The notes under the pieces: generated by a model
The model's database searches: none
Told to the model about the DNA's origin: nothing
Seen by the model: only the letters and a program-made list of their open reading frames with translations
Translations under genes and position numbers: made by a program
Shown here: one piece after another, positions 1 through 41,051 of the stretch
How positions within the stretch are numbered: the first letter of the stretch is position 1
Layout: each line of letters begins with the position of its first letter
Assembly (NCBI GenBank): GCA_015075175.1
Contig: JABTUV010000023.1
Coordinates: forward strand, 1-41,051
DNA: 41,051 nt
Origin: a bacterium
GTDB lineage: Bacteria > Hinthialibacterota > Hinthialibacteria > H5-UNCL2
Direction: 5' to 3'

Positions 1-426
1 CTCGGCCATCCCCGCGGCCAACGAATCCTTACCTGACTGCGCGTACCCGCACAGCCCGACAAGCGCCCGCGGGCCTGCCGGGACTAGCGGTCCGTCGCCC
101 TGCTCGAACCGCAGCACGGGTGTGCCGACCGCCCGTGCCACCATGACCTCTAGCGTGGCGCCCCACGACCGGTACCACCCTGGCAGCGTCACCACCGCAG
201 CGTCCGTGATAACGCATGACAGGTCGTACCGCATCAAGTTGCGGACCATCTCGTCATCCCATGTTTCGGGGTTGCCGGGGTCGATCCCCGCTATCCGGTC
301 CATCTCAGCGGGTGACGTGACAGCGTACCCCCGGTAGCGCAGCAGCGCCGCGGCCCGGTCGAAGGCGTCGTGATTCAGCCTCGGGTAACCACGCATCGGG
401 CCAGACAAGAACAGTCTCGCAGCCAT
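1..426 (-). CDS. DUF4406-dNMP kinase fusion, N-terminal part (continues at 41051)
   Basis: ATG at 426-424, 9 nt after a GAGG-type ribosome site; the frame stays open to base 1 (142 codons) and continues at 41051. Residues 1-110 are a DUF4406 / nucleoside 2-deoxyribosyltransferase-like domain: the start LFLSGPMRGYP, a central MRYDLSCVITD and the GWYRSWGATLEVMVARA helix are typical. Residues 125-140 then read GLCGYAQSGKDSLA, a P-loop of the deoxynucleoside monophosphate kinase family. Known members of the first family cleave or exchange nucleobases; the kinase phosphorylates dNMPs. Inference: a two-domain nucleotide-pool enzyme that salvages or remodels host nucleotides for phage DNA synthesis. 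It lies downstream of endonuclease VII in the leftward unit. See the 40572-41051 entry for the rest. Confidence 0.85.
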   Translation of the reverse strand, partial: MAARLFLSGPMRGYPRLNHDAFDRAAALLRYRGYAVTSPAEMDRIAGIDPGNPETWDDEMVRNLMRYDLSCVITDAAVVTLPGWYRSWGATLEVMVARAVGTPVLRFEQGDGPLVPAGPRALVGLCGYAQSGKDSLAAGMAE

Positions 427-4064: not shown

Positions 4065-4345
4065 GCTCCCTCCTTAGTTAGAAACTGCGACGCGGAGAGT
4101 ATAGTACCGCTTCGCTTCATGCGGGACAACAGCCTAGCACGGTGGGACGCAATCATACCACCCCGGATGCCATAGGCTCCCCCGCCCTCCCGGGTTTCGA
4201 CCGCTACCGCGTCGTCCAGACAGGCATCCCGGACGGGGCAGACAGCGCACACCTCCAACACAGTCGGCACTACGTCGGGTTCGGGGAAGAACAGGTCAGT
4301 GTCCATCCCGCGGCACCGGGCCAAGTCTCGCCAGCTAGCAGCCAT
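4061..4345 (-). CDS. WhiB-family iron-sulfur regulator, copy 1
   Basis: 94 aa. Cysteines C11, C33, C36 and C42 give the C-x2-C-x5-C WhiB pattern preceded by ARCRGMDTDLFFP; a basic tail follows. WhiB-like proteins bind a [4Fe-4S] cluster and the main sigma factor region 4 to reprogram promoters. The usual G(V/I)WGG turn here reads GIRGG, so the tryptophan used in sigma binding is replaced by Arg. The start ATG overlaps the stop of the beta-helix gene by one base, and its own stop overlaps the Sak4 start. Phage WhiB proteins are known to interfere with host WhiB regulation. Confidence 0.88.
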   Translation of the reverse strand: MAASWRDLARCRGMDTDLFFPEPDVVPTVLEVCAVCPVRDACLDDAVAVETREGGGAYGIRGGMIASHRARLLSRMKRSGTILSASQFLTKEGA

Positions 4346-5426
4346 TACCCCACCACCGACAGCTCAGCCACCCACTCGGCCTGGCGGGCGCGGGCGAGGG
4401 CGATCACGGCCTCGTAGTCGGCACGCCACCGGCCCTCGGTTGCTTTCGGCCAGTCGTGCCCGCCGCCGGGCGCGATCCGTACGGCGAGCTCGCCGGGAGT
4501 GCCGGTCCAGCAACCCGCGGTGATCCGGGCGGTACCGTCCTGGTGGCGCCACACGGTGACGTGCCGGTACTCGGAGCCGACCGGACCGACCGTGACGACA
4601 TGCCGAGTCGAGCCGACCAGCGCATCGTCCCCGACCTGCGCCTGGCCCCCGACCCGCGCCTGGCCCCAGACCCGCGCCTCGCCCCCGACCCGCGCGGTCC
4701 CCGACCCGCGCCTCGCCCCCGACCCGCGCCCGGCCCCAGACCCGCGCCGCCCCGACCAGCGCCCGGCCCCGGACCCGCGCGCCGCCCCGACCGCCTGGTC
4801 CCCGACCTGCGCCTCGCCAGACCCGCGCCGATTCCCCAGACCTGCGCCCGGTCCCCGACCCGCATCGCCCCAGACCCGCGCGGTCCAGACCTGCGCCGGC
4901 CCCAGACCGCGCATCGCCCCGACCAGCGCCCGGCTCCAGAGCCGCGCTCGCCCCCGACCTGCGCCTGGTCCCCGACCTGCGCCTCGCCTGACCACGCGCG
5001 GTCCCCAGACCCGCGCCTGGCCCCGACCCGCCTCGCCCCCGACCAGCGCCTGGCCCCGACCTGCGCCTCGCGCCCCCGGCACCGCCTGGCCCCCGACCTG
5101 CGCCTCGCTGGTGCGCCCGGTCCAGACCTGCGCCCGGTCCCGACCTGCGCCTCGCCCCGACCTGCGCGTCGTCCCCGACCCGCGCCTCGCCCCGACCCGC
5201 GCCTGGCCGGACCTGCGCCCGGCCAGACCTGCGCCCGGCCAGGACCTGCGCCTCGCCCCCGACCAGCGCCTGGCCCCGGCCACGCGTCGGGGCCGATGGT
5301 GCGGTCGGGGAAGACATCGCAGTGTCCGCTACCCAACCGCCAGAAACTCCGTCCGGGTTGTGGTGGCGGTGCGCCGGGACAGGCCTCGCCCGTCCCCGAA
5401 GTCGTATGCGTGGTCTGCGCGGTCAT
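4345..5426 (-). pseudogene. Left-handed beta-helix (hexapeptide-repeat) protein, frames disrupted
   Basis: The C-terminal 90 residues are one clean frame (VVTVGPVGSEYRHVTVWR to WVAELSVVG). Before it, 4620-5300 is an array of 18-nt-type units encoding hexapeptides such as ARVWGQ, ARVGGQ, AQVGDD and ALVGGE. These hop between all three frames, so no single frame spans it. The start is probably ATG 5426, overlapping the methyltransferase stop (TGATG); the N-terminal VFPDRTIGPDA already resembles a first beta-helix coil. Hexapeptide helices occur in acyltransferases and structural caps, but no catalytic histidine is visible. Either the array has been scrambled by replication slippage or, more simply, these GC repeats were misread. 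Intact length would be near 360 aa. Confidence 0.6.
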
Positions 5427-5715
5427 CAGTCTCCTCCTGCCACTCGGCCTCGCCGGAAGTACGTGTCGCCAAGCTCAACTGCGATCGAGCCGTGCGGCGC
5501 AGCACCACGCACTCAGCCGTGTGCGCCAACAGCGTATCTATGTAGGTGGCGGGACTGTCCTCCCCGCCCACCTCCAACCCCTTGTCTGGGTGGTCGCTCG
5601 GGAGGTATGACCGCAGCGCAAGAAACGGCGGGCTGGTAAGCACCAGATCAATCGACTCGTCGCCCAACTTCTTTACCAAGTCGAGCGAGTCGCCGATAGC
5701 CATGTACGCAGTCAC
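5426..5715 (-). pseudogene. Truncated DNA methyltransferase (N4/N6 type)
   Basis: GTG 5715 overlaps the WhiB stop by 4 nt (GTGA). The frame reads MAIGDSLDLVKKLGDESIDLVLTSPPF when split across its start: GDS near the N-terminus and the TSPPF catalytic motif (DPPY class) identify an amino-methyltransferase. A 1-nt frame change near 5495 restores APHGSIAVELGDTYF, the next family block, but the frame then stops at 5428-5426 after about 96 aa. The SAM-binding FxGxG and target-recognition regions are missing, so it is probably inactive unless sequence is missing here. An intact version would protect phage DNA from restriction. Confidence 0.6.
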
Positions 5716-5960
5716 GTCACAGCCCTCCGCAGCGCCCGCCTCTGCCTGGGTGCCAAGCCGCCCCACATCCCGTACTCGTAGTGTGGCTCCTCGTGCGCCA
5801 TAGCGTGCGCTAGGCACTCGTCCTGCACGGGGCACTGCTCGCACACAGCGCGTGCAGCGGCGTACTGGTGGCTAGAACGTTCAGCGTTCGGGAACCACCA
5901 TTCCTGCGGGTAAGGCTTACATGCTGCCTGATCCTGCCACTTCAACTCACCGAGATTCAT
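5712..5960 (-). CDS. WhiB-family iron-sulfur regulator, copy 2
   Basis: 82 aa from ATG 5960, with AAGGGG 9 nt upstream (a GTG 3 nt earlier is the alternative). Cysteines C14, C40, C43 and C49 give the cluster-binding pattern; EWWFPNAER and the G-M-W-G-G turn are canonical, followed by a basic RQRRALRRAVT tail for DNA contact. It is more conventional than copy 1, with the sigma-binding Trp kept, and should be able to bind host SigA. It overlaps the end of the gene upstream by 14 nt and the methyltransferase start downstream by 4 nt. Confidence 0.92.
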   Translation of the reverse strand: MNLGELKWQDQAACKPYPQEWWFPNAERSSHQYAAARAVCEQCPVQDECLAHAMAHEEPHYEYGMWGGLAPRQRRALRRAVT

Positions 5961-9657: not shown

Positions 9658-9677
9658 GGCACCATGCTAGCACAAGG

Positions 9678-9761
9678 TGGGCGTGGTAGGACTCGAACCT
9701 ACGTGATGCCAACGCATAGCTGGGTTACAGCCAGCCCCGTTCGCCGCTCCGGTACACGCCC
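9678..9761 (-). tRNA. tRNA-Tyr (GTA)
   Basis: Reading the minus strand, acceptor GGGCGTG (9761-9755) pairs with CACGCCC (9685-9679), with A as discriminator at 9678. The anticodon stem GCTGG/CCAGC encloses CTGTAAC, anticodon GTA. A 16-nt variable arm makes it class II, as expected for bacterial tRNA-Tyr, and the T arm GTAGG-TTCGAGT-CCTAC is perfect. CCA is not fully encoded. It may support tyrosine codons in late genes or mark a former integration or tRNA-acquisition site; no integrase is present. Confidence 0.93.
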
Positions 9762-19472: not shown

Positions 19473-20715
19473 TCAAGCCCAGGGGTCCTTACTGGGCGGG
19501 TCGGCAAGCCCGATCACTGCGTGGCTGTTCCGGTTAGTGGCCACGAACTGGTGGTACACCTTGAACCGGGCCTCCACAGCGTCCTGGGTGAGAGACCGCT
19601 GAAGCACGTTGCCGTCACGGTCCTCCCAATCCCAGTCCTGCATCACGAAGCGGCTGATCTCCGACGGAGTGATGGCGAACGCCGTCTTTACGGGACAGTA
19701 CCGCTCGGCCACCAGAGTACCCTGGGCGACCTGAAGGCCACGCCAACCGGCCTTCAGGGTCGTCTCCCGACCGTCGTACCGCTTCTGAGTCTGAAGCAGC
19801 GAAGCGAGAGCACGTCGCTGCGAGTGCTCAGCGATGTAGAGCGAGGGGCTGCTGCCATCCGCGTCGGTCTCGACACCTTCGATCGCCTGGTCGAACACCG
19901 TCTCGGTGATCTTCGTCGTACCGGGAGTACCGACACTTACAGACTTCCACGTCGGGACCGTCGTGGGGTTAATCCCGGCGAACGTCTGGCTCGTGTTGAT
20001 AAGGTGCCGCAACCCGTTCACTTCTGCGTTGAGGTTGCCCGCCCGAACAAGGTGGTACGTGTCGTTGTTTACCGTGGTGACCACGGCGGCAGGCGTAACC
20101 GTCTTGGCGACACTGTCGTAGGGCAACGGTGCTCGTACCCGCCGTGGAGCCGTCAGCAGTGGCGACCACGTCCACACTCTCCCCGACGAACAGGGGCCGG
20201 AACTCCGAAGTGGTCGGGCCAGTCCCGGTGAAGGCGAACGTGGCGTTGCTCGTACCAGTCACCGCGTCCGACACGCCGAGAAGCGAACCGGACTGAAGGG
20301 CACCGTTGATCGTGACCTTCTGGCCCATAAGCTGCCGGGCGAAGTCGTTCTTCAGGTCGTTCTCAGCGCCCCGCATCTCTCGATCGAGCGCCCGAACGAA
20401 AGCGCCCGTGTCAGACACGGTGGCGGCAATGGCGGGACCCGAGACGGTGATCGTGTGGTAGCCGAAGGTAATGTCCTCCTTCGCCTGCGTGAACTGCTGC
20501 GACTGTGCGGTCGGCAGCGTACCCAACTCGGCACGGTAACCCGAAGAAGTCGAGCGGCCCGTGTGGACGGCCCACACCGCCTCACGACCAACGATGTCCT
20601 CGTCGTTACGCGAGCACTCGGTAACAATCGGGTTGCTGTTGTTTAGGGCGTTGCGGAGGCCAGGACCATAGTTCTCCTTCAGCGCCGCATCATACGTAGT
20701 AAGACTAGCTACCAT
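19473..20715 (-). CDS. Major capsid protein (one frame break)
   Basis: About 414 aa after one frame change near 20125. The N-terminal part (VASLTTYDAALKENYGPGLR, SGYRAELGTLPTAQSQQF) and the C-terminal part (YDSVAKTVTPAAVVTTVNND to GLADPPSKDPWA) are each well-behaved, and the second has no plausible start of its own, so they form one gene. Length, beta-rich body and place right after the scaffold support a HK97-fold capsid protein. Sequence such as YHTITVSGPAIAATVSDTGA followed by a long helix REMRGAENDLKNDFARQLMG suits the spine helix. A broken capsid gene would be lethal, so the break is probably a sequence error. Confidence 0.8.
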
Positions 20716-21593: not shown

Positions 21594-23687
21594 TTAGGCG
21601 CCCATACTAGCAGCTTGCTGGTCCACAGACACGCCGGGCACCCTACCCGGCTCCCCAGGACCGCCGATCCCCGCCCGCTTACCTACCTCGGTACCAGACA
21701 GGGCGGACGGACTACCGCCCGTACCCATGCCAGTGTCGGCACCTACCTGGCCGGTAAGCGGATCAGCATACTCGCTAGAGCCCTCAGGCTTAGCGGACTG
21801 CTGATCCCGACCATCCACGCCGGGCGGCGGAGCGAACCCGAGCGCAGGGTTGAGCAACTGGTAATGAACCGTGATATGCGCGTCGATCGTGTCGCGAATC
21901 TTGATCGCCTCCGGGTCACCCGTGTCGGCCCGCCGGTCGATCTCGTCGTACATCTCGGACTTACGAAGCCGCTCATGCTCGGCGATGTGGACCGCGTGGT
22001 CGTCCCACATCTCCGCCTTACGGACCAGACCTTGAATAAGGTCACCGTTCTCACGGTTCGCCCGCTTGGCGTCGATGTCGAGACTGTCAACCACGAAGTC
22101 CGTGCCAGGCAAGTCAAGCATCCGGATGAAGTCACGCCAATCCTTGAACGGACTGGCCGGAGTGCCGGGAAGCCCGGAACCGAGAAGGTCCATACCCAAC
22201 TGGACCCTGGCGGCCTTCGAGCGGGGCAGCGCCGACTCGGCCTCGACGTGGACGTCAACGTGGTCGGTAATGTTCGCCCCGCGTAGCTGCACCACTTCCA
22301 AAGTTCCGGCCTCCGACCATACCCGGATATTCCGTTCCTCGGTCCAGAACTGGCGGACCAACTGAAGCATGTGCCAACCCACTTCCCGGACGTATTCCGC
22401 GAGCAACCGGGCGCTGTTCGCCATCTTCGTGTCATCTGCTTCCTGCAACGCCAGGATCGCCGCGGCGGCCATTGAAGCGCCGGGGGCCTTGCCGGACGAC
22501 ACGTCCGACTGCCCGGCCCGGTCGCCCATCTCCGCGTCGACACGGTTCATCGCAGTCTCGTGCTGCGCCACCCACCCGGAGTCCGGCACCGTCCAGCGGG
22601 GCGGCTCACCTACGGGGTTGAACAGAACCAGGTCGGCCCGGGTGGTGATGTTGCGCGGGTTGATCGACCCGGCAGGGGCGGTCAGCTTCGGCGTGATGGT
22701 GCGCCGCAGCGTCGCCTCCCTGGAACGGGCGTCGTTGTAGTCTGCCTGCAAGGGCACCAGGTCCGTTACCCATGTCCGCCCCTCCCTACGGCCGATGCCG
22801 GGGAGGAGGCTGACCTGCACGAACGGAAGCCGCCCGTGCGAGTAGGGGAAGTCCTTGGCCGGTTCCAAAATCGTCTTGCCCGCCCACGTCACAACCATGC
22901 CCTTCGGGGCAGCGCGGCACGGCAACATCCAGAACTGGTGGACCAGAACCTGGTCCTCCGGGTGCTGGATTCCAGACCGGGTGGTGTCGTTGAGCGCCGC
23001 CACGTCGTCGGCCAGCGTGCGTGCCGGGTCGGTCCCGGCGGGCACGATCCCGTACCGCTCCCACACGTCCTCCTTCGTCATGGCGACCGAATGAACCGCC
23101 CACCGGGCGGTAGCCATCGTCTTGGCGCCAGGATCGACCGCAAGCTCGAACGCGGGCACCACGTCGAGCGCCACCTCACCTTCGCGCACGTCGCCCTCGA
23201 TAGTCACCGGCCGCCCCTGGTCGGGGTCCCAGGTGATCTTCGCGTAGGCGTACCCGAGCGGCACCGCCCAGAAGTAGGTGTCCATCAGCAAGAGGGGCCA
23301 CTGCAAACGGTACATCTCATGGAGCAGAATACGGGTAGCTGCCCGAGCTGCGCCCATATCGTTGTCGTCATCCGTGACGGGGCGGCACTGCGGCTCCGGG
23401 GCGGAGCGCAGCAGCCGGGCGATGAAGTGCTCCACGATCGACCCGACCTTGTTCACCGTCACCCGCACCGTGGCCTGCGGGTCATGGGGGTTCTGCGTAG
23501 GCGCGCGGAAACGGCCGTTCACACGGTCCCACGCGACCCACTGCTTGCCCAACATGTAGGCAAGGTTCAGCCGCATCTGTTCCTCGGCCATCCCCTTACG
23601 GCCCCGGTCGCGCTTGCGTTCGAGCCACGCAATCAGTTGCGCCGGGTCCTCCGGGGCGGCGAACATGTTCGCCTGGTTACTGCTCAT
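21594..23687 (-). CDS. Portal protein
   Basis: 697 aa. Features match large podovirus/P22-type portals: the N-terminal AWLERKRDRGRKGMAEEQMR, then LAYMLGKQWVAWD, TVNKVGSIVEHFIARLL, a wing region with LGYAYAKITWDPDQG and DVVPAFELAVDPGA, and a helical stem near MAAAAILALQEADDTKMAN. A C-terminal Gly/Pro/Ser-rich tail (about 80 residues) may reach into the capsid. The portal forms the 12-mer DNA entry ring and docks the terminase encoded just upstream. The start overlaps the preceding small gene by 11 nt. Confidence 0.88.
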   Translation of the reverse strand: MSSNQANMFAAPEDPAQLIAWLERKRDRGRKGMAEEQMRLNLAYMLGKQWVAWDRVNGRFRAPTQNPHDPQATVRVTVNKVGSIVEHFIARLLRSAPEPQCRPVTDDDNDMGAARAATRILLHEMYRLQWPLLLMDTYFWAVPLGYAYAKITWDPDQGRPVTIEGDVREGEVALDVVPAFELAVDPGAKTMATARWAVHSVAMTKEDVWERYGIVPAGTDPARTLADDVAALNDTTRSGIQHPEDQVLVHQFWMLPCRAAPKGMVVTWAGKTILEPAKDFPYSHGRLPFVQVSLLPGIGRREGRTWVTDLVPLQADYNDARSREATLRRTITPKLTAPAGSINPRNITTRADLVLFNPVGEPPRWTVPDSGWVAQHETAMNRVDAEMGDRAGQSDVSSGKAPGASMAAAAILALQEADDTKMANSARLLAEYVREVGWHMLQLVRQFWTEERNIRVWSEAGTLEVVQLRGANITDHVDVHVEAESALPRSKAARVQLGMDLLGSGLPGTPASPFKDWRDFIRMLDLPGTDFVVDSLDIDAKRANRENGDLIQGLVRKAEMWDDHAVHIAEHERLRKSEMYDEIDRRADTGDPEAIKIRDTIDAHITVHYQLLNPALGFAPPPGVDGRDQQSAKPEGSSEYADPLTGQVGADTGMGTGGSPSALSGTEVGKRAGIGGPGEPGRVPGVSVDQQAASMGA

Positions 23688-24197: not shown

Positions 24198-25755
24198 TCA
24201 GAAATCGTCCGGCACGCCGAGGACAGGGTTCACCGAACGGAGCGCCCGGGTTCTCGCTTCCTCGACTTGCTCCCACATGGCCTCATCGGACCGCCTTTCC
24301 GGTATACCGATCAGGTCCAGAACTTACGCGGGCGGGCGGGAACATGCGGCTGGAGGTTCCTCCGACATCGCGAACAGATACATCAGCGCGTCTCCGCGGT
24401 CGGGACTCGTGACCCCCTACTTCATCTCCGCCTTCGTCTCAGCCCGGATCTCGCCTGGTGCGTGGGCGTATAGTGCGGGTCGCACACCTGGGCACGGGCT
24501 CTCGTCGTCCACGCCGATGCAATGCTGCCGTGCTCAGACCTCCCGGCGCAGCGCCCACCAGCCGACCTGGCGTTCGTGACCGGCCGCCCACCCATAGCCC
24601 CGGATCCGATGATCTCCCGCCGGGCGCAGTAACCTCGGATTCTCCGCATCCATACACCGGCACCCGCCGTCCGCGTCGTGCACGACATGAGTGGGCGGTG
24701 CTCGCGCGCAAGCGGGCCACGCAGGTCTCGAAGAACAGTCCATCCGCATCGCCGGGAACGCGCGTCGATAAGCGATCGCCGTCCCGAACCGTGACTACCG
24801 CACTCGTCCGGAACCGCCAGGGCACCAGGGTCGATCCCCAACTGGCGGACCCCCACAACTTCAGCCGAGTAGGTATGGACATTATCATACCACTCGAACG
24901 GAACGAGTACGTCATCCCCAGTGTCCCAAAACTCCGCTTCTACCGAAGTGCGCCATTCAAAGCTTTCTGGTCCCATCCCCTGCGCCTTCAAGTCCTCTAG
25001 GAACTCGGGCGTCATAAGGTTGGCGCCCGGCGGCATCAGGCTCGCCTGTGAACGCCGGGTGTCCCACGCCGTGATCTTGATTGTCGTAGTGCGATCCGAA
25101 CGCGCCATATGCGCCGCGTAGGTGTCGGGCGTGGTCGGGTTGAAGATAAGCAGCAGCCGGGAGTCGCCGCTGGCGAGCAGACGCGTGATGCCCAACTGAA
25201 GCTCGTCGCTCCAGCGCGGTCGCCTCGTCTGATGACCAACGGCAGGCCCGTGAGACCCCTGGATTCCTCCGCCGCTGAAGCGGCTGGCCGATGATGAAGT
25301 GGTTAGGGCCGTCGTCTTGCCGAAGGTCGCCCAAGACGAGACGGCCTGGAAGCTCGAAGCCGCGCTGGTCGGCGCGCGCAGCGGCGTTGCGAATCTCGCC
25401 CCACAAGTTGTCCGCAGGTGCTCGGACAGACTAATCGTAATGATCTTCGACCCGCGGCACGGCCCTCGCATATCTCGCGTGGGGTACCGGGCGTGTATGC
25501 CTCAAAGAACGCAATAGCCAACCTAGCGGCCAAATAGGTCTTACCACTCGCATTGCAGCTAGGCACGGCCACCTTGGACCGCGGGATGCTCACAGCCTCG
25601 GCAATCGCCCTCTGCTGCGACCACAGCTTTTCGCCGGTAATAATCTCAGAAGCGGCTCCCAAGTCCACATGGCCGAGCATCCGCAACCGGTCCCGCGCGG
25701 ACACCGACTGCGGCATACGCATCGACCCGGGGAGCAGCAAGGCCGTCACAGGCAT
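24198..25755 (-). CDS. Terminase large subunit (multiple frame breaks)
   Basis: About 515 aa if joined. The N-terminal frame gives the Walker A loop in VAVPSCNASGKTYLAARLAI. Later pieces in other frames give SSDEATALER (Walker B), RLLLIFNPTTPDTYAAHMA (motif III region), SFEWRTSVEAEFWD, LGIDPGA (first nuclease Asp), DALMYLFAMSEEPP and a C-terminus LDLIGIPERRSDEAMWEQ to LGVPDDF. At least six frame switches are needed between 25440 and 24330. The motor packages DNA through the adjacent portal. As packaging is essential, the breaks are most likely sequence errors. It overlaps the upstream gene by 3 nt. Confidence 0.75.
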
Positions 25756-32254: not shown

Positions 32255-32470
32255 GGGCCTATTGCCCTCCGGGCCTTTGGCCCTCCGGGCCTTTGGCCCT
32301 CCGGGCCTTTGGCCCATTGACCCTTTGGCCATCCGAGCCTTTGGCCATCCGACCCTTTGGCCATCCGAGCCTTAGACCCTTTGGCCATCCGAGCCTTTGG
32401 CCCATTAACCCTCCGAGCCTTAGACCCTTTTACCCTCCGGACCATTGATCCATTGGCCCTTTGACCCATT
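32255..32470. repeat. 27 tandem octamers, exact 8-bp period
   Basis: The 216 nt divide without a single gap into 27 octamers of the form G-R-N-C-C-N-T-Y (for example GGGCCTTT, GGCCCTCC, GACCCTTT, GGCCATCC, GAGCCTTA). Position 4 is C in all, and paired octamers form 16-bp units containing GGGCC-TTT-GGCCC dyads. An 8-bp period cannot encode a repeated peptide, and the minus-strand frame across it is a by-product. Function unknown: protein-binding array or origin are candidates. Confidence 0.85.
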
Positions 32471-32971: not shown

Positions 32972-33038
32972 GCGGGCCATCGGTGCTCCGGTGGCCCGCA
33001 CAGTGCCTACCGGCGCCACCCGAGAGAAGGGGTTACCC
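32972..33038 (+). promoter_or_regulatory. Conserved leader, copy 2
   Basis: Hairpin arms 32972-32983 and 32988-32999 (12 bp, one G-T) with loop TGCT, then CACAGTGCCTACCGGCGCCAC and GAGAAGGGG before ATG 33039. It matches copy 1 in the CAC-GTGCCTACC-G-GCCAC block. Confidence 0.55.
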
Positions 33039-33644
33039 ATGTTCAACCTTGCGTACCGGATCGACACGGCCGACGGCGTGAGCCGGAACGGGTTCAGGTG
33101 GCCCGACTCCGGGCCCGTTGAGGCCCCCGGCCCGTTCAACGCCACCAACTCCGGCCCGTGTCCATCCCGCCCCGGTGACGGCATCTGCGCCGCCACCACG
33201 TGGGAGGGAGCCGCGTCCGGTGGCCACGACGCCGGCGTGGTTCGGCTCGTGGCCTACGACGACGCCGACGTGCTCGGGTGGGACCGTAACAAGGTCCGCC
33301 TGGCACGCGCCCACGTCGTCGGCACCATCCCCGTGCGGGACCTGGCCACCCCAGGTGCCGACCTGGCGGGCGCCTACTTGTACCGCGCCGACCTCCGAGG
33401 GGCCGACCTGAGGGGCGCCTATCTGTGGAGGGCCCACCTCCGGGGGGCCGACCTCCGAGGGGCCGACCTCACCGGGGCCGACCTCCGAGGGGCCCTCCTC
33501 ACCGACGCCAACCTCCGAGGGGCCGACCTCCTAGGGGCCCTCCTCACCGGGGCCGACCTCACCCGCGCCAACCTCCGAGGGGCCGACCTCACCGACGCCG
33601 ACCTCACCCGCGCCCGCGTGGAGGGCGCTACGCTGCCCAGCTAG
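33039..33644 (+). CDS. Pentapeptide-repeat protein 1
   Basis: 201 aa, ATG 33039. Residues 1-105 form a conserved non-repeat domain (FNLAYRIDTADGV, GPCPSRPGDGICAATTW, VVRLVAYDDADVLG, VVGTIPVRDL). From about 106 the A(D/N/L)L-x-G pentapeptides begin: ADLAGAYLYRADLRGADLRG and so on, about 18 repeats ending EGATLPS. Pentapeptide repeats fold as a right-handed quadrilateral helix that mimics DNA; some family members (Qnr, MfpA) bind gyrase. Inference: binds a host or phage DNA-acting enzyme, with the N-terminal domain giving specificity. Same architecture as the genes at 34862 and 36018. Confidence 0.82.
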   Translation: MFNLAYRIDTADGVSRNGFRWPDSGPVEAPGPFNATNSGPCPSRPGDGICAATTWEGAASGGHDAGVVRLVAYDDADVLGWDRNKVRLARAHVVGTIPVRDLATPGADLAGAYLYRADLRGADLRGAYLWRAHLRGADLRGADLTGADLRGALLTDANLRGADLLGALLTGADLTRANLRGADLTDADLTRARVEGATLPS

Positions 33645-33674
33645 CTTAGACGACCACCCGAGAAAGGGGAAACA

Positions 33675-33838
33675 ATGGACACTACGGCCGCCTACGAACT
33701 GACCTTGTTCATGGAGTGCGCCGCATCCGAAACTACGTGCTCCGCGGTGTCGACGACCTGCCCGACGGCGGGGCCGACATCATCGACCGAGCACGCGCCA
33801 ACGGCTGGCGCGACGTGGCGGAGCACGACGACAACTAG
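33675..33838 (+). CDS. Small acidic protein, probable frame break
   Basis: About 54 aa. ATG 33675 has a strong GAGAAAGGGGAAA site. The start MDTTAAYELTLFMEC is followed, after a 1-nt frame change near 33712, by RRIRNYVLRGVDDLPDGG and DIIDRARANGWRDVAEHDDN, ending TAG 33836-33838. Without the change the frame becomes Thr/Ser-rich text running across a promoter, which is unlikely. Helical, acidic end; function unknown. Confidence 0.5.
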
Positions 33839-33843
33839 GGAGC

Positions 33844-33872
33844 TTGACAACAGTAGACAGACCGCCTACACT
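33844..33872 (+). promoter_or_regulatory. Sigma-70-type promoter before ArdC-like gene
   Basis: TTGACA (33844-33849), 17-bp spacer, TACACT (33867-33872), 44 nt before GTG 33917. This is the best promoter match in the window and suggests independent, probably early, transcription of the antirestriction-type gene by host SigA polymerase. Confidence 0.75.
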
Positions 33873-33916
33873 ACCAGCAACCGCCCCGATGGTGGCCAAG
33901 AGAAAGGGGAAATAAA

Positions 33917-34783
33917 GTGAAAGCCGACGACCTTTACGCACAGGTTACGAACGACCTAGTTGCACAGATAGAAGCGGGCGCTTCGGAATGGCAAATGCCG
34001 TGGCACTCGTGGTCCGGCCAAGTGAGCACCGTCAACCGGCCCTACCGCGGCATAAACGCCGCATGGTTGGCAATGGTCGCGGCGGACCGTGGCTACGCGG
34101 GACGGTGGGGTACCTATAAGGCATGGAAGACAGTGGGCGCGCAAGTCCTCAAGGGGGAGCGCGCCACCCGCGCTTTCCTGTGGCGACCGTTTGAGAGGGA
34201 GAATCGCGACACAGGCGAGGTAACTAAGGGCGTCTTCGCCACGACGTACGCAGTGTTCGCAGCGGAGCAATGCTCCGGGGTACCGGAGCACTTGTCTGCT
34301 CCGCCCGAACGCGTCATCGGGGGCGCAGAAAGCGTGCCCGAACTTGACCGCTACTTCGCGGCGGTGGGGGCCGACGTGCGCCACGGTGGCGACCGCGCGT
34401 GTTACCGGCCGGGCGAAGACCGTATTTGCTTGCCATATCGGGAACAGTTTGTGGCGACCGACGGGTACTACTCGACCGTGGCTCACGAGCACGTACACTG
34501 GACCGGCGCGGCAACCCGGCTCAACCGTGACCTTTCGGGTCGGTTCGGATCGGACGCCTACGCGGTGGAGGAGTTGACCGCCGAGCTTGGCGCGGCGTTC
34601 TTTGCGGCTCATCACCACGTGGCGCCCGACACCAGGAGTGACAACGCTGCCTACCTGGCGAGTTGGTTACGGGTACTGCGGGCGGACCCGAAGGTGCTTC
34701 GCACTGTGGCGGGCGCCGCTAACAAGGCGATAACCTACATGGACAGTCTCGCCGGAGTTGGCGCTGCCGACCTGGCCGCGTAG
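33917..34783 (+). CDS. ardC: ArdC-like antirestriction protein with zincin motif
   Basis: 288 aa, GTG 33917 behind GAGAAAGGGGAAA. N-terminal ArdC ssDNA-binding domain: DDLYAQVTNDLVAQIEAGAS, W..PW, NRPYRGINAAWL and WGTYKAWKTVGAQVLKGERA. The C-terminal metallopeptidase-like domain has VAHEHVHWTG (HExxH, H190-E191-H194), with the ELTAELGAAFFAAHH helix as third-ligand candidate. ArdC proteins protect incoming DNA from restriction. Own promoter and position between pentapeptide genes fit a first-minutes counter-defence role. Confidence 0.85.
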   Translation: MKADDLYAQVTNDLVAQIEAGASEWQMPWHSWSGQVSTVNRPYRGINAAWLAMVAADRGYAGRWGTYKAWKTVGAQVLKGERATRAFLWRPFERENRDTGEVTKGVFATTYAVFAAEQCSGVPEHLSAPPERVIGGAESVPELDRYFAAVGADVRHGGDRACYRPGEDRICLPYREQFVATDGYYSTVAHEHVHWTGAATRLNRDLSGRFGSDAYAVEELTAELGAAFFAAHHHVAPDTRSDNAAYLASWLRVLRADPKVLRTVAGAANKAITYMDSLAGVGAADLAA

Positions 34784-34790
34784 GTAGCTG

Positions 34791-34861
34791 GGGCGCCACC
34801 GCCACGCGTGGTGGCGCCCACGGTGCTTATTTGGTGCCACTGAGAGAAAAAGAGGGATACC
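34791..34861 (+). promoter_or_regulatory. Conserved leader, copy 3
   Basis: Perfect 10-bp hairpin (34791-34800 / 34810-34819) with inner CCACGCGTGG, then CACGGTGCTTATTTGGTGCCAC and GAGAGAAAAAGAGGG before ATG 34862. Homologous to copies 1 and 2, confirming that leader and pentapeptide gene were duplicated together. Confidence 0.6.
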
Positions 34862-36021
34862 ATGATGCATTTAGCCTATCGTATCGACGCCGCGGGTGGA
34901 GAAAGCCGCGGTGGCTTTGAATGGCCCGACTCCGGGCCCGTTGAGGCCCCCGGCCCGTTCAACGCCACCAACTCCGGCCCGTGTCCATCCCGCCCCGGTG
35001 ACGGCATCTGCGCCGCCACCACGTGGGAGGGCCGCGTCCGGTGGCCGACGCCGGCGTGGTTCGGCTCGTGGCCTACGACGACGCCGACGTGCTCGGGTGG
35101 GACCGTAACAAGGTCCGCCTGGCGCGCGCCCGTCGTCGGCACCATCCCCGATGCGGGACCTGGCCACCCCAGGTGCCGACCTGGCGGGCGCCTGCCTACC
35201 GCGCCGACACAGGGGCGCGGACCTGAAACGCGCCGACCTGGGCGCGGACCTTCGGGGCGCCAATCTGAGGGGCGCCCGCAGGCGCCCTGGGCGCGCCGAC
35301 CTGGGACGCCGACCTGGAGGCGCGGACCTGGGGCGCGGACCTTCAGGGCGCCAATCGAAGGCGCCCACCTGGAGTCGCCCCACCTGGACGCGGACTGGAG
35401 CGCGGACCTTAGGGCGCCAATCAGGGCGCCCTGGCGCGCGCCGACCTGGGGCGCGCCGACCTGGGGGCGCGGACCTGGAGGCGCCAATCAGGGGCGCCCA
35501 CCTGGAGGGCGCCCACCTGGAGCGCGGACCTGGAGGCGCGGACCTTCGCCAATCTGAGGGCGCGCCCCACGGAGGCGCCCACCTGGAGGCGCGGACCTGG
35601 AGGCGCGGACCTTCCAGGGCGCCAATCGAGGGCGCCCGCCTGGAGGCGCCCACCTGGAAGGCGCGGCCTGGAGGGCGCGGACGCTGGGCGCCGCAGGCGC
35701 CCACAGGCGCCCACGAAGCGCGCCGACCTGAAGCGCGCCGACCTGGAGGCGCAGCGGACGCAGGAGGCGCGACAGCTGGGGCGCCTCACAGGGGCGCGCC
35801 CACCTGGAGCGCGCCAACCTGGAGGCGCGGACCTGGAAGGCGCGGACCTTCGGGGCGCCAATCTGAGGGGCGCCATCCTCCGAGACGCCCACCTGGAGGG
35901 CGCCCACCTGGAGCGCGCCGACCTGGGAGACGCCGACCTGGGAGACGCCCACCTGGAGGGCGCCCATCTGGAGGGCGCCCTCCTGTGGAGCGCCGACCTG
36001 AAAGGGGCTACGCTGCCATGA
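34862..36021 (+). pseudogene. Pentapeptide-repeat protein 2, disrupted
   Basis: ATG 34862, MHLAYRIDAAGGESRGGFEW, then the same N-terminal domain as protein 1, stopping with TGA 36019-36021 overlapping the next ATG. From about 35030 the frame is broken repeatedly: relative to gene 1 there are 2-nt losses near 35031, 35046 and 35130 and a 1-nt gain near 35150. The repeat part (35200-36010) changes frame many times although 15-nt units (GCCGACCTGGAGGGC type) are plain. About 110 nt (34922-35031) are identical to 33099-33208. The last repeats ADLKGATLP are in frame. Slippage, gene conversion with decay, or sequence error; intact length would be near 385 aa. Confidence 0.65.
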
Positions 36022-36803
36022 TGCGCCTTGCATATCGTATCGACACTGCCAGCGGAGTGAGCCTGGTCGGCTTTCGGTGGCCAGCTTTCGGCCCGGTGAA
36101 AGCGCCCGGGCCGATCGACTACACGAACTTCGGCCCTTGCCCATCCCGCCCTGGTGACGGCATCTGCGCCGCCACCACGTGGGACGGCGCCGGTTCGGGC
36201 GGTCATGCTGCCGAGGTGGTTCGGTACGTAGCCTACTCTGACGCCGACGTACTCGGCAGCGATAAAGATAAGCTGCGGCTGCGGCGCGCCTACGTGGTCG
36301 GCACCATACCAGTTCGGGACTTGGCCATTCCGGGCGCCGACCTGCGGGGCGCCCACCTCCGGGGCGCCAGCCTACAGAATGTAGACCTTCGGGGCGCCCA
36401 CCTGGAGCGCGCCGACCTGGAGGGCGCGGACCTGGAGGGCGCGGACCTTCGGGGCGCCACCTTGGCGACTGCCAACCTGGGAAACGCCGACCTGTACGGC
36501 GCCGACCTGACAGGCGCCAACATGATCGTAGCCGACCTTACCGGCGCCTACACGGAAAGCGCCCGGCTACACGGTACCTACCTGGAAGGCGCCGACCTGC
36601 GGGGCGCCGTGCTTCGGGGCGCCGACCTGGTAAACGCCATCCTCCGGGACGCCGACCTGCGGGGAGCCGACCTACGGGATACCGACCTCTGGGGCGCCGA
36701 CCTCCGGGGGGCCGACCTGGCGGGCGCCGACCTCCGGGGGGCCGACCTGGAGGGCGCCGCCCTTACCGGCGCCAACATAGAGAATGCCGCGCTGCCCGAC
36801 TAG
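36018..36803 (+). CDS. Pentapeptide-repeat protein 3
   Basis: 261 aa, ATG 36018, overlapping the previous stop (ATGA). The N-terminal domain (residues 1-108) is diverged from protein 1 but keeps GPCPSRPGDGICAATTW and VVGTIPVRDL. The C-terminal 150 residues hold roughly 30 pentapeptides (ADLRGAHLRGASLQN, ADLTGANMIVADLTG), ending ENAALPD. Intact, with more sequence variation between repeats than in genes 1 and 2. Expected to form an extended DNA-mimic beta-helix; target unknown. Confidence 0.82.
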   Translation: MMRLAYRIDTASGVSLVGFRWPAFGPVKAPGPIDYTNFGPCPSRPGDGICAATTWDGAGSGGHAAEVVRYVAYSDADVLGSDKDKLRLRRAYVVGTIPVRDLAIPGADLRGAHLRGASLQNVDLRGAHLERADLEGADLEGADLRGATLATANLGNADLYGADLTGANMIVADLTGAYTESARLHGTYLEGADLRGAVLRGADLVNAILRDADLRGADLRDTDLWGADLRGADLAGADLRGADLEGAALTGANIENAALPD

Positions 36804-37895: not shown

Positions 37896-38099
37896 CTACT
37901 CTATCAGCCCTGACTGGTCAGACGACCCATCTTCATCGTCCATTATGTAATAACCCCCAACGAATCCGAACGGTTGCGCCGTAGTAGAGGGCTCGTCGTC
38001 GTCACAGTCTTGCTCGGCGAGTACGCCAGCTATACACCGTAACTCGTGCGCCACGAGCGGCAGCCCTAACAGGACTATGATGCCAGCAACCAGTACCAC
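37896..38099 (-). CDS. Membrane protein overlapping endolysin, lysis-module candidate
   Basis: 67 aa from GTG 38099. The N-terminal segment VLVAGIIVLLGLPLVA is hydrophobic, followed by a cysteine- and aspartate-rich soluble part (LAEQDCDDDEPSTTAQ). It overlaps the endolysin end by 25 nt. Single-span, N-terminal anchor with acidic tail could be a pinholin- or antiholin-like protein; evidence is only position and topology. Confidence 0.5.
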   Translation of the reverse strand: MVLVAGIIVLLGLPLVAHELRCIAGVLAEQDCDDDEPSTTAQPFGFVGGYYIMDDEDGSSDQSGLIE

Positions 38100-38875
38100 G
38101 TCTTAGGCCCGGCAATACCATCGACGGGCATCTGCTTGTTGCTAAACCCGAAGAACCGCTTTATATCGGATTGGAAGTCGCGCACCGCCCGCTCGGTATC
38201 TGGGCCGAAGTCGGAGTCAACCCGCAGCCCCGCTGCACGCCTCTGATTGAGCAACACTTGCAACCAGAACACCGCCGGACCCTTAGAGCCCCGCCGCAGC
38301 ACCTGCCTCGATGCGGCGTCCACCGCCCGCTTGATGGCCACCAGTGGATGCTCGCCGCTGGGGGTAGTGGGTACCGCAGCGCCGGGGGTAATCTTGCGGA
38401 CTGCCGCGGTAATCTGCGGGCCGGGGCATACGGTGCCTCTACCCACCCAATCCTTATGGACGTGAAGCCCGTGGTACCCCGCAGCCATGACCTTCAGCGC
38501 AGACAGCATGGCCGGGGTATAGTTCAGGTCGCCGGGTCCAGTCAGCAGCACCACCGCCGCGGACACACGGTTAGCGGTGGACGTGCCGTTGGCGCCCGAC
38601 CTGACGTTACGGCCCCTTCCCTCATACACGTTACCGTAGCGGTCGATCGCCATGTTGTAGGCGATGTCGATGTAGTCCTCGGTGGGGTGGTTCAGGTGGT
38701 ACCGTTGGATCGTCCGCATGACATTCCCGTAAGGGACACGTCTATCGGTGATTAGGGGCAGCGGGTCCCCCACCCAATGCACAGTTAGCGAGCCAGGCTC
38801 GCCTGCGGGCCACGGGGTACCGGCCCGCTTAGGCGGGGCAGCCCCCCAATCTCCACGAGAGAATGAACGTGCCAT
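38075..38875 (-). CDS. Endolysin: PGRP-type amidase with peptidoglycan-binding domain
   Basis: 266 aa. N-terminal amidase_2/PGRP domain (residues 1-165): zinc His in SLTVHWVG (H33), IDIAYNMAIDRYGNVYEGRG, and HVHKDWVGRGTVCPG carrying the second His and Cys ligands. After a short linker, residues 190-265 form a PG_binding_1 domain (LRRGSKGPAVFWLQVLLNQR, FGPDTERAVRDFQSDIKRF). The enzyme cleaves the lactyl-Ala amide bond of peptidoglycan. There is no signal peptide, so it needs a holin. No mycolic-acid esterase (lysin B) is seen, hinting that the host is not strictly mycobacterial. Confidence 0.93.
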   Translation of the reverse strand: MARSFSRGDWGAAPPKRAGTPWPAGEPGSLTVHWVGDPLPLITDRRVPYGNVMRTIQRYHLNHPTEDYIDIAYNMAIDRYGNVYEGRGRNVRSGANGTSTANRVSAAVVLLTGPGDLNYTPAMLSALKVMAAGYHGLHVHKDWVGRGTVCPGPQITAAVRKITPGAAVPTTPSGEHPLVAIKRAVDAASRQVLRRGSKGPAVFWLQVLLNQRRAAGLRVDSDFGPDTERAVRDFQSDIKRFFGFSNKQMPVDGIAGPKTWYWLLAS

Positions 38876-38901: not shown

Positions 38902-39249
38902 CTACTCATCTTCATCTTTCAACCTGGCACCGGCGGTCATCCACCGGTCGCACTCGTCACACTTGTAGGAAACATAGAGACGGGGAAGGTCGTGCTCTAC
39001 AAGAATGTCGATAAGCAGGTTACCCGCACGCGTCACCCAATCGCGCAAAAGGTCAAAGTCCTTACCTGTGGTAAACATCTCTGGCAACACGTTGTATTCG
39101 GTCTCGTTCTTCAGCCGACCCACCATACCTATAGAACCGAACAGGACGAACACACCCATCGCAGCATGAAGCGTGTCCTCATCCGTAATAAGCCCTGCGT
39201 TCATGGCGTCGATAATCTCTGCAATAGTGTCCTTGTCAAGCTCAGTCAT
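38902..39249 (-). CDS. Small protein with CxxC, unknown
   Basis: 115 aa; ATG 39249 overlaps the phosphoesterase stop (ATGA). Helical N-terminal half (LDKDTIAEIIDAMNAGLITD), a Gly/Val-rich middle and a single CDEC pair near the C-terminus (SYKCDECDRWMTAG). Not recognised. It lies between endolysin and phosphoesterase genes. Confidence 0.6.
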   Translation of the reverse strand: MTELDKDTIAEIIDAMNAGLITDEDTLHAAMGVFVLFGSIGMVGRLKNETEYNVLPEMFTTGKDFDLLRDWVTRAGNLLIDILVEHDLPRLYVSYKCDECDRWMTAGARLKDEDE

Positions 39250-40346
39250 TTAGGGTCAAACTCCTTCTTAGAGACGAACTCTTGTCCTCTATGCAACGCC
39301 CACGACCTGTCGTCTAAAGGAATAATGGGCACCATCTCAACATGGAAACGCCCGTCGCCAGGCTCGTATCGCACTACCGCCAGCCCCTGCTGCCAGTCCT
39401 CCCACGAGCGGGGCGGAGCGATCCAAGGGTCAAGCCCCGCCCGCGCCGATGGCACCGTGCCGTCGATCCGGCACAGACACCCGGGGCTAAGTGCCTGGTT
39501 GAACTTAGGGCTAGTCCGTGTGTTCCGGGTCTGCCACATCGCGACGATACGGTGGACGTGGCCGAACACCACGCTCACCCGCTCATCGTCCAGTACCCGG
39601 TCCAGCATGTTACGCCCGGTGCGGCGGCCGTGGATGGCCGCTAGATTCTCGTTGACGTAGGTCGCGCCACTGGGATACCCGCCGACCCACTTGGTGTTAG
39701 GCATATCAGCGATGTTGAGCAGGTGTGGCACCGTCATGGGCGGGTAATCACCGGGCTGCCGCCGCGCCTGCCGGAGCCCCGCAGAAGCCAAGGCGTTATC
39801 CAGCACGTAGTTGCTCAGCCGGGCGTCGTGGTTCCCTTCCAACACCCGCGTCTCACGGCTCAGCGCCGCCACCGTGGCGATATGCCTGCTCGCCCGGTCA
39901 ATCGCCCGCTGGGTTGTGGTCACGAACGACGGCTCTTGCCGGTACCTACCATGCGCGGGCAAGTCCAACACATCGCCCAACATCACCGTCAAGTGCGGGC
40001 GCTCGACCTCGATCACCTGCTCCGCAATATGCAACGCCCGCTCGTCGTGGAACGACTGGAACGTACCGTCAAGCAGCTGGCGGTAGCCGAACTGCTGGTC
40101 TGGGAGCACGACCGCGGTGCGCCACTTGCAGGGCCGCGGCGTAGCCCGCGGCACCTTCACGGTCAGCGCGGGAGCGGGCGCCACGGGCGGCCACGCGAAC
40201 CCGGTCTCGTTACGACGGGCAGACTCGTCCGCAGAGCGCCTAGCCCGATAGTCAAGCTGGCACTGGCGAGAGCAGAACACGTTCACCTTAGACTTCGGTA
40301 CGAACGCCCTATCGCATTGCTTACATTGCGTTGCTGTGTTACTCAT
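39246..40346 (-). CDS. Calcineurin-like metallophosphoesterase with N-terminal zinc ribbon
   Basis: 366 aa from ATG 40346. Residues 1-35 hold two CxxC pairs (CKQCDRAFVP, CSRQCQLDY), a zinc finger of the MYM/FCS type. The phosphoesterase core has VVLPDQQFG, VMLGDVLDLP, EGNHDAR and VFGHVHRI, the metal ligands of this superfamily. Substrate is unknown: phage relatives are annotated as nucleases or phosphatases. The zinc finger repeats the C-terminal motif of the gene upstream because of a local duplication. Confidence 0.82.
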   Translation of the reverse strand: MSNTATQCKQCDRAFVPKSKVNVFCSRQCQLDYRARRSADESARRNETGFAWPPVAPAPALTVKVPRATPRPCKWRTAVVLPDQQFGYRQLLDGTFQSFHDERALHIAEQVIEVERPHLTVMLGDVLDLPAHGRYRQEPSFVTTTQRAIDRASRHIATVAALSRETRVLEGNHDARLSNYVLDNALASAGLRQARRQPGDYPPMTVPHLLNIADMPNTKWVGGYPSGATYVNENLAAIHGRRTGRNMLDRVLDDERVSVVFGHVHRIVAMWQTRNTRTSPKFNQALSPGCLCRIDGTVPSARAGLDPWIAPPRSWEDWQQGLAVVRYEPGDGRFHVEMVPIIPLDDRSWALHRGQEFVSKKEFDPK

Positions 40347-40472
40347 GGTTTTTACCTACAAGCCACCTGTCTAACTGCCCATACCCTTCGCACTTCTTAC
40401 ATTGCGTTGTCGTGTCACTCATGGTTTTTACCTACAAGCCACCTGTCTAACTGCCCATACCCCCCGCACTTC
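40321..40472. repeat. 76-bp tandem duplication
   Basis: 40321-40396 and 40397-40472 are near-identical copies starting TTACATTGCGTTG; only a few substitutions separate them. The duplicated unit spans the end of a zinc-knuckle gene and the start of the phosphoesterase gene, creating the 27-aa ORF at 40339-40422. Confidence 0.85.
40339..40422 (-). CDS. 27-residue zinc-knuckle ORF born by duplication
   Basis: ATG 40422 overlaps the upstream stop; ends TAA 40341-40339, overlapping the next ATG. Product MSDTTTQCKKCEGYGQ then LDRWLVGKNHE. Its start equals the phosphoesterase start and its end equals the end of the 54-aa protein, so it is a junction gene produced by the 76-bp duplication. Reading frames are kept by overlapping ATGAG codons. 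Translation is plausible but untested. Confidence 0.5.
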   Translation of the reverse strand: MSDTTTQCKKCEGYGQLDRWLVGKNHE

Positions 40473-40579
40473 TCACATCTAACCCAATCACACTTCTTGT
40501 TGCTGCAATGCGTCATAAGGTACGCCCTGCATGTGGGGCAAAGATCACCGGGCCGGTAAGGCTTGCGCCGCCTAAACAC
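40415..40579 (-). CDS. Small multi-cysteine zinc protein
   Basis: 54 aa from GTG 40579, with GGAGTG upstream and overlap with the kinase stop. Three cysteine pairs, CPTC, CSNKKC and CEKC, suggest one or two zinc ribbons, with a conserved end GGYGQLDRWLVGKNHE. A start at 40615 is possible but would sit deep inside the kinase. Function unknown; perhaps a nucleic-acid-binding knuckle. Confidence 0.6.
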   Translation of the reverse strand: MFRRRKPYRPGDLCPTCRAYLMTHCSNKKCDWVRCEKCGGYGQLDRWLVGKNHE

Positions 40580-41051
40580 ACCGGCAACACTCCTCTGCCC
40601 GCGCCCGCGCTGCATACTCCATAGACTGCGCCAGCAGCTTAGCTTTGTACGCCCAGTCGTCCAGCGACCCGCCGTTACGCAGCACTAGGTCATGCTTGAT
40701 AAGGTCGGGGCGTTCAGACTGGTGGCCGTCGGACTCCCGCCCTGGCCGCTCGACGCGGACGATGGTACCGCCCCACGACCGCAACGCATCTGCCTCGTTC
40801 GGATAACGCACGTCAGTCACTACGTACATGCTATCAGGGGATTCGTGCATAGCGTCCAGCACCGGAGTTACCCACGCGTCGTCGCGCAAGTCCCGCACCT
40901 TGGCGCCTAGCTCCTGTAGCATCGGCCGGTGCTGGGCCTTCAAGCCGTCAGTCCAGCCGCACTGCTCCACCAGTTGCCGGTCCACCCGGGGCAGCGCACT
41001 CGACGCCGCGTCCTTCAGCCGGTCGGCGAACGCCAAGCGGTGCCACCCGTA
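40572..41051 (-). CDS. DUF4406-dNMP kinase fusion, C-terminal part (begins at 426)
   Basis: 159 aa here, in frame with the 142 codons at 1-426 (301 aa in total). The first residues YGWHRLAFADRLKDAASSAL follow the P-loop directly, as in phage deoxynucleoside monophosphate kinases (P-loop, then G-F-x-x-x-A-F-A-D-x-L-K). Later motifs: LGAKVRDLRDDAWVTPVL, YVVTDVRYPNEADALRSWGG with IVRVERPG, and SDGHQSERP. These bind the nucleotide base and ATP. The stop overlaps the next GTG. Confidence 0.87.
   Translation of the reverse strand, partial: YGWHRLAFADRLKDAASSALPRVDRQLVEQCGWTDGLKAQHRPMLQELGAKVRDLRDDAWVTPVLDAMHESPDSMYVVTDVRYPNEADALRSWGGTIVRVERPGRESDGHQSERPDLIKHDLVLRNGGSLDDWAYKAKLLAQSMEYAARARAEECCRCV

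Follow-up and report, generated by a model that had tools for sequence, protein, structure and literature searches.

Results

The window, that is, the whole stretch of DNA analyzed, is the entire contig C16 of exactly 41,051 bp, which belongs to a 49-contig metagenome bin that is 84% complete. Each end of the window holds part of one minus-strand gene. The 5′ part (1–426, codons 1–142) encodes a DUF4406 or nucleoside 2-deoxyribosyltransferase-like domain (aa 4–105) followed by a kinase P-loop, GYAQSGKD (aa 127–134 of the joined protein), and the 3′ part (40572–41051, codons 143–301 and the stop) encodes the remainder of a dNMP kinase. On the same strand, a gene of the recombination endonuclease VII (HNH) family lies upstream of the split gene (469–1035; PF02945, E 1.1e-19), and the next gene upstream is DNA polymerase A (1060–2694; phrog_17, E 2e-91). 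On the other side, a small zinc-ribbon-like ORF (40415–40615; putative function, assigned by eye) shares bases with the 3′ end of the split gene, and the row of genes thus carries on across the join. Downstream of it lie a metallophosphoesterase (39246–40346; phrog_20266, E 6e-57) and an endolysin with an amidase and a peptidoglycan-binding domain (38075–38875; phrog_1493, E 2e-28; PF01471), both also on the minus strand. The row that runs through the join on one strand is therefore polymerase, endonuclease VII, fused kinase, zinc-ribbon ORF, metallophosphoesterase, and endolysin.

The minus strand further encodes a major capsid protein (19473–20715; phrog_14242), a portal protein (21594–23687; phrog_156, E 2e-42), and a probable large terminase (24200–25755), which was recognized by eye from three frames by its Walker A motif CNASGKT and the C-terminal SPDRGDALMYLF. 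Besides polymerase A, the families present include a primase-polymerase, an SNF2-like helicase, a Sak4-like ATPase, and a PD-(D/E)XK nuclease/exonuclease; the structural and lysis families are represented by portal, capsid, head-tail protein, and endolysin.

A tRNA-Tyr gene (anticodon GTA) is found at 9676–9761 on the minus strand, and no similar copy was found elsewhere in the bin. About 39 copies of a 17–18-base G+C-rich unit form an array at 4613–5286, perhaps an indel-broken hexapeptide-repeat protein, and a DNA methyltransferase fragment at 5332–5844 (motif LVLTSPPF) is apparently truncated. At 32991–36803 on the plus strand, three related pentapeptide-repeat genes, the middle copy of which is disrupted, flank an ArdC-like antirestriction gene (33917–34783). 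At 32255–32439, next to divergent gene blocks, lie short tandem repeats with units of 16 and 24 bases (GGGCCTTTGGCCCTCC and variants), and at 40312–40463 a 76-base unit is tandemly duplicated with 92% identity in the region where two small minus-strand genes begin.

The reading frames of several of these genes are disturbed. The 3′ part of DNA polymerase A lies in another frame near 1.2 kb (1060–1230), where the motif MLLQVHDPLVVEVEP was found; the major capsid gene has one frameshift near 20.1 kb, the capsid of Cellulosimicrobium phage DS1 matching it in two adjacent frames; and the probable large terminase is broken by several frameshifts. The splitting of these three genes between frames suggests indel errors of the kind seen in incompletely polished long-read sequence. 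Raw short-read assembly leaves an end repeat of k-mer length (CheckV, PMC8116208), and the window, which has no such repeat, is unlike a raw short-read assembly. Judging from the sequence, it was probably produced by long-read assembly. No prefix of the contig equals a suffix, and its first and last kilobases share no 14-mer, in line with the initial annotation, according to which no terminal repeat is left in the sequence. Apparent terminal overlaps in two small contigs of the bin turned out to be runs of N.

From ATG 426, the minus strand is open for 142 codons, ending in GLCGYAQSGKDSLAAGMAE, and base 1 is reached on a codon boundary. The frame that enters at 41051 begins with YGWHRLAFADRLKDA and stays open over 159 codons, up to the stop at 40572. 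When the ends are joined (426–1 followed by 41051–40572), they form one uninterrupted frame of 301 codons, encoding 301 aa. Only a join offset of 0 bases leaves the frame open for 301 codons, as offsets of −2, −1, +1, or +2 bases bring a stop at codon 153–176. The initial annotation had read the two ends as a single 301-codon gene restored across the junction, and both its account of the frame up to base 1 and the continuation from 41051 are confirmed.

The joined protein was searched against dNMP kinases, as had been proposed with that reading, and its match to PHROG 139 (dNMP kinase) crosses the join. The match scores 131.1 bits for the joined protein, compared with 14.3 for the left half and 101.8 for the right half; on the profile, the left-half match stops at position 104 and the right-half match begins at position 107. 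A second profile, an HMM built for this analysis from 12 phage kinases, gave 131.2 for the joined protein versus 14.1 and 104.9 for the halves. On both profiles, the score of the joined protein is higher than the sum of the two halves.

The spacing at the seam was examined by scoring insertions and deletions there with the 12-kinase HMM. The score is at its maximum at zero to plus one residue and lower on either side; plus one residue scores slightly higher because 7 of the 12 training kinases are one residue longer, 5 having exactly the joined length. The seam spacing is identical in these 5 of the 12 isolated phages (Endor2, OzzyJ, Sitrop, Diane, and Amela). A scan of IMG/VR yielded 80 seam-spanning relatives; from K133 to A151, 20 of them have the spacing of the joined protein and 58 have one residue more, such that the seam spacing is natural in 78 of 80. 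The gap or insertion in the kinase alignment that the initial annotation had named as a sign against the join is absent, the spacing of a quarter of these relatives being the same. At the seam, the joined kinase is one residue shorter than most relatives; one codon may have been lost at the join, yet many natural relatives share its length. The profile match, the seam scoring, and the IMG/VR scan agree with one another, which makes it very unlikely that unrelated contig ends were brought together by chance. An exact search of IMG/VR for the 26-mer at the junction had no hits, so that IMG/VR offers no second, independent assembly of this phage that crosses the join.

In the restored gene, DUF4406 (PF14359) matches aa 4–105 with 55.1 bits (curated cut-off 22), and the dNMP kinase match spans aa 121–285 (PF21448, 42.5 bits, curated cut-off 27.1; phrog_139, E 1e-37). 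The P-loop is intact, and G127, G132, K133, A149, and D152 are invariant residues common to actinophage kinases. By these domain matches, the predicted product combines a DUF4406 (deoxyribosyltransferase-like) domain with a dNMP kinase, which is an uncommon fusion. The gene had been described as a dNMP kinase; this description holds as far as the kinase profiles match, but the gene is more than a kinase, as the DUF4406 domain is fused to it N-terminally. Phage families related to DUF4406 carry the name nucleoside 2-deoxyribosyltransferase.

Among phage records, 162 have DUF4406-like genes (mostly records of actinophages, with identity up to 55%), and several hundred have dNMP kinases. When the fused protein was compared with 50,697 phage records, none matched at least 80% of its length, and the fusion of DUF4406 to the kinase was seen in IMG/VR contigs only (L037 and L038). 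L037, the best IMG/VR relative, encodes the two domains together in an ORF of 290 aa whose seam spacing is identical (KYGWTRVAFADPLKK versus EYGWHRLAFADRLKD); L038 also has both in one ORF, with three residues fewer at the seam. These two share the one-ORF arrangement with the window and differ from it in sequence (about 35% identity), and L037 sits on a 136.6-kb contig, unlike the 41-kb window. In a distant contig (L003), polymerase A, DUF4406, and kinase follow one another as separate genes, and another contig (L057) has a DUF4406 gene followed by a kinase gene. The dNMP kinases of known systems (PDB 1dek, which is matched by the right half of the joined protein; phiC31 gp52; and the Streptomyces Camvirus kinases) share the P-loop and the kinase core but lack the N-terminal DUF4406 domain of the window's protein. 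As a candidate DUF4406 partner of the Camvirus kinases, the gene upstream of them was examined and is not DUF4406. A search for the kinase in 193 whole genomes gave only weak matches elsewhere.

Portal and capsid identify relatives with podovirus-type genomes of 42.6–46.7 kb, three of which were deposited as circular. The portal is related to those of podoviruses infecting Arthrobacter, Cellulosimicrobium, and Microbacterium and to those of two podovirus genomes from viromes. Podoviridae sp. ctEqG8 (MW202795; 42,560 bp; circular record; Manatee Spring virome) is alike in size, has a portal of 27% identity, and shares capsid, polymerase A, Sak4-like ATPase, helicase, lysin, and WhiB homologues with the window; it differs in having no annotated kinase and in its terminase and layout. 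Arthrobacter phage Jasmine (KU160650, a podovirus of 46,723 bp) shares homologues of portal, capsid, WhiB, polymerase A, RecB-like nuclease, and helicase; it differs in that a terminal repeat is kept in its record, in its G+C content of 45.9% (PMC5513430), and in having no annotated kinase. Phage DS1 (MW590223; 46,217 bp; circular record) shares portal, capsid, polymerase, and RapA-like helicase homologues, but identity is about 25% and no fused kinase is annotated. At the nucleotide level, the window's first 12 kb matched neither ctEqG8 nor any other of the 50,697 phages searched, and single-sequence scans of IMG/VR with the portal and the polymerase found no relatives.

Discussion

The hallmark modules were found in the window (the terminase by eye), its length is like that of its relatives, and the sequence runs seamlessly from end to start. 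The seamless frame, the continuous family match, the fused homologue with the same spacing, the hallmark genes, and the relative-like size make a closed genome very likely, and we conclude with high confidence that the window represents the genome of a podovirus-like phage in complete or nearly complete form, a closed loop opened arbitrarily inside the fused-kinase gene. The closed phage genome of about 41 kb put forward in the initial annotation is thus upheld. A closed contig cut within a gene is ordinary for assembled phage genomes. In the sample, the phage DNA behind the loop would have been concatemeric, circular, or terminally redundant, and the lack of an end overlap would come from a long-read assembler or from trimming. 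False circularization of long-read contigs is documented, false circles making up 7 of 10 re-examined reclassified contigs (PMC8862349), and the window could accordingly be a linear fragment whose in-frame join arose by chance or as a chimera. However, both ends lie in the same gene, at complementary positions and in frame, the seam spacing is natural, and a fused homologue exists elsewhere; we regard such an origin as exceedingly improbable.

A closed genome does not fix the ends of the virion DNA. The initial annotation called the genome circularly permuted, which stands if it means merely that the start of the record is arbitrary. As a property of virion DNA, circular permutation is not established, because a closed contig is equally expected from headful packaging, from cos concatemers, or from a collapsed direct terminal repeat, and the weights that we give the three possibilities are guesses that come out nearly even. 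Assembly turns linear viruses with long repeats into loops (PMC8862349). Jasmine, one of the isolated phages with the best portal matches, carries a direct terminal repeat of 1,330 bp (PMC5513430, Table 1), which we confirmed as exact in the sequence of record KU160650. Linear virion DNA with direct terminal repeats, the repeat being collapsed to one copy and the true ends lying away from the join, is accordingly a serious possibility for the window, if somewhat short of an even chance; it is compatible with the closed contig and differs on the virion ends only. A terminal repeat is absent from the contig ends, and an assembly-collapsed repeat would look the same. Portal identity with Jasmine is, however, only about 25%, and the terminases of the two could not be matched: terminase fragments, searched piecewise, gave no family matches, the terminase being frameshifted, and a frameshift-tolerant alignment to three relatives, including Jasmine, was no better than shuffles. 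In addition, end types vary widely among actinophages (PMC5513430).

Headful packaging, which is common among tailed phages and is found in several Arthrobacter phages (PMC5513430), would give terminally redundant, circularly permuted virion DNA and yields a closed contig without fixed ends. Nothing in the sequence separates it from the other two end types, and Jasmine, the nearest relative with mapped ends, is of a different kind; we consider headful packaging possible, if on balance doubtful. Cohesive ends would lead to the same closed contig without overlap, the loop coming from ligated or concatemeric intracellular DNA, and many actinophages have 3′ overhangs of 9–13 bases (PMC5513430). 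No cos-like evidence was found in the window, and the join is itself unlikely as a cos site, being located within coding sequence and 15–24 kb from the terminase region, so that cohesive ends appear unlikely. The circular contig is thus an unsafe basis for inferring virion end structure.

WhiB regulators otherwise serve as a hallmark of actinobacteria and actinobacterial phages. The window carries two WhiB genes (4130–4333 and 5730–5939), which are found nowhere else in the bin. The 16S of the bin is nearest to Candidatus Omnitrophota (82–85% identical), the tetranucleotide correlation of the contig with eight other bin contigs is 0.31–0.58 compared with 0.59–0.87 among those eight, and the relatives of the kinase and the portal are mostly actinophages. 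On these four grounds, the contig is probably a mis-binned actinophage. The composition of a phage is often unlike that of its host, and the compositional misfit is therefore no proof of mis-binning. That the phage truly infects the Omnitrophota-like organism of its bin, a host assignment derived from binning and not from sequence, seems to us quite improbable; if it were true, a podovirus with two WhiB regulators would operate outside actinobacteria, in a different phylum.

With the genome read as closed, the window is usable as a whole genome whose gene content, gene order, and gene absences can be taken as complete; the truncated ORFs at its two ends call for annotation as one gene. From the two families that this gene unites, DUF4406 and dNMP kinase, its likely, putative role is to control the pool of deoxynucleotides in the course of infection: the kinase domain would raise dNMPs towards dNTPs, and the other domain would cleave or exchange their bases. 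The fusion would thereby join two steps of nucleotide metabolism that in other phages belong to separate genes, which are sometimes neighbors.
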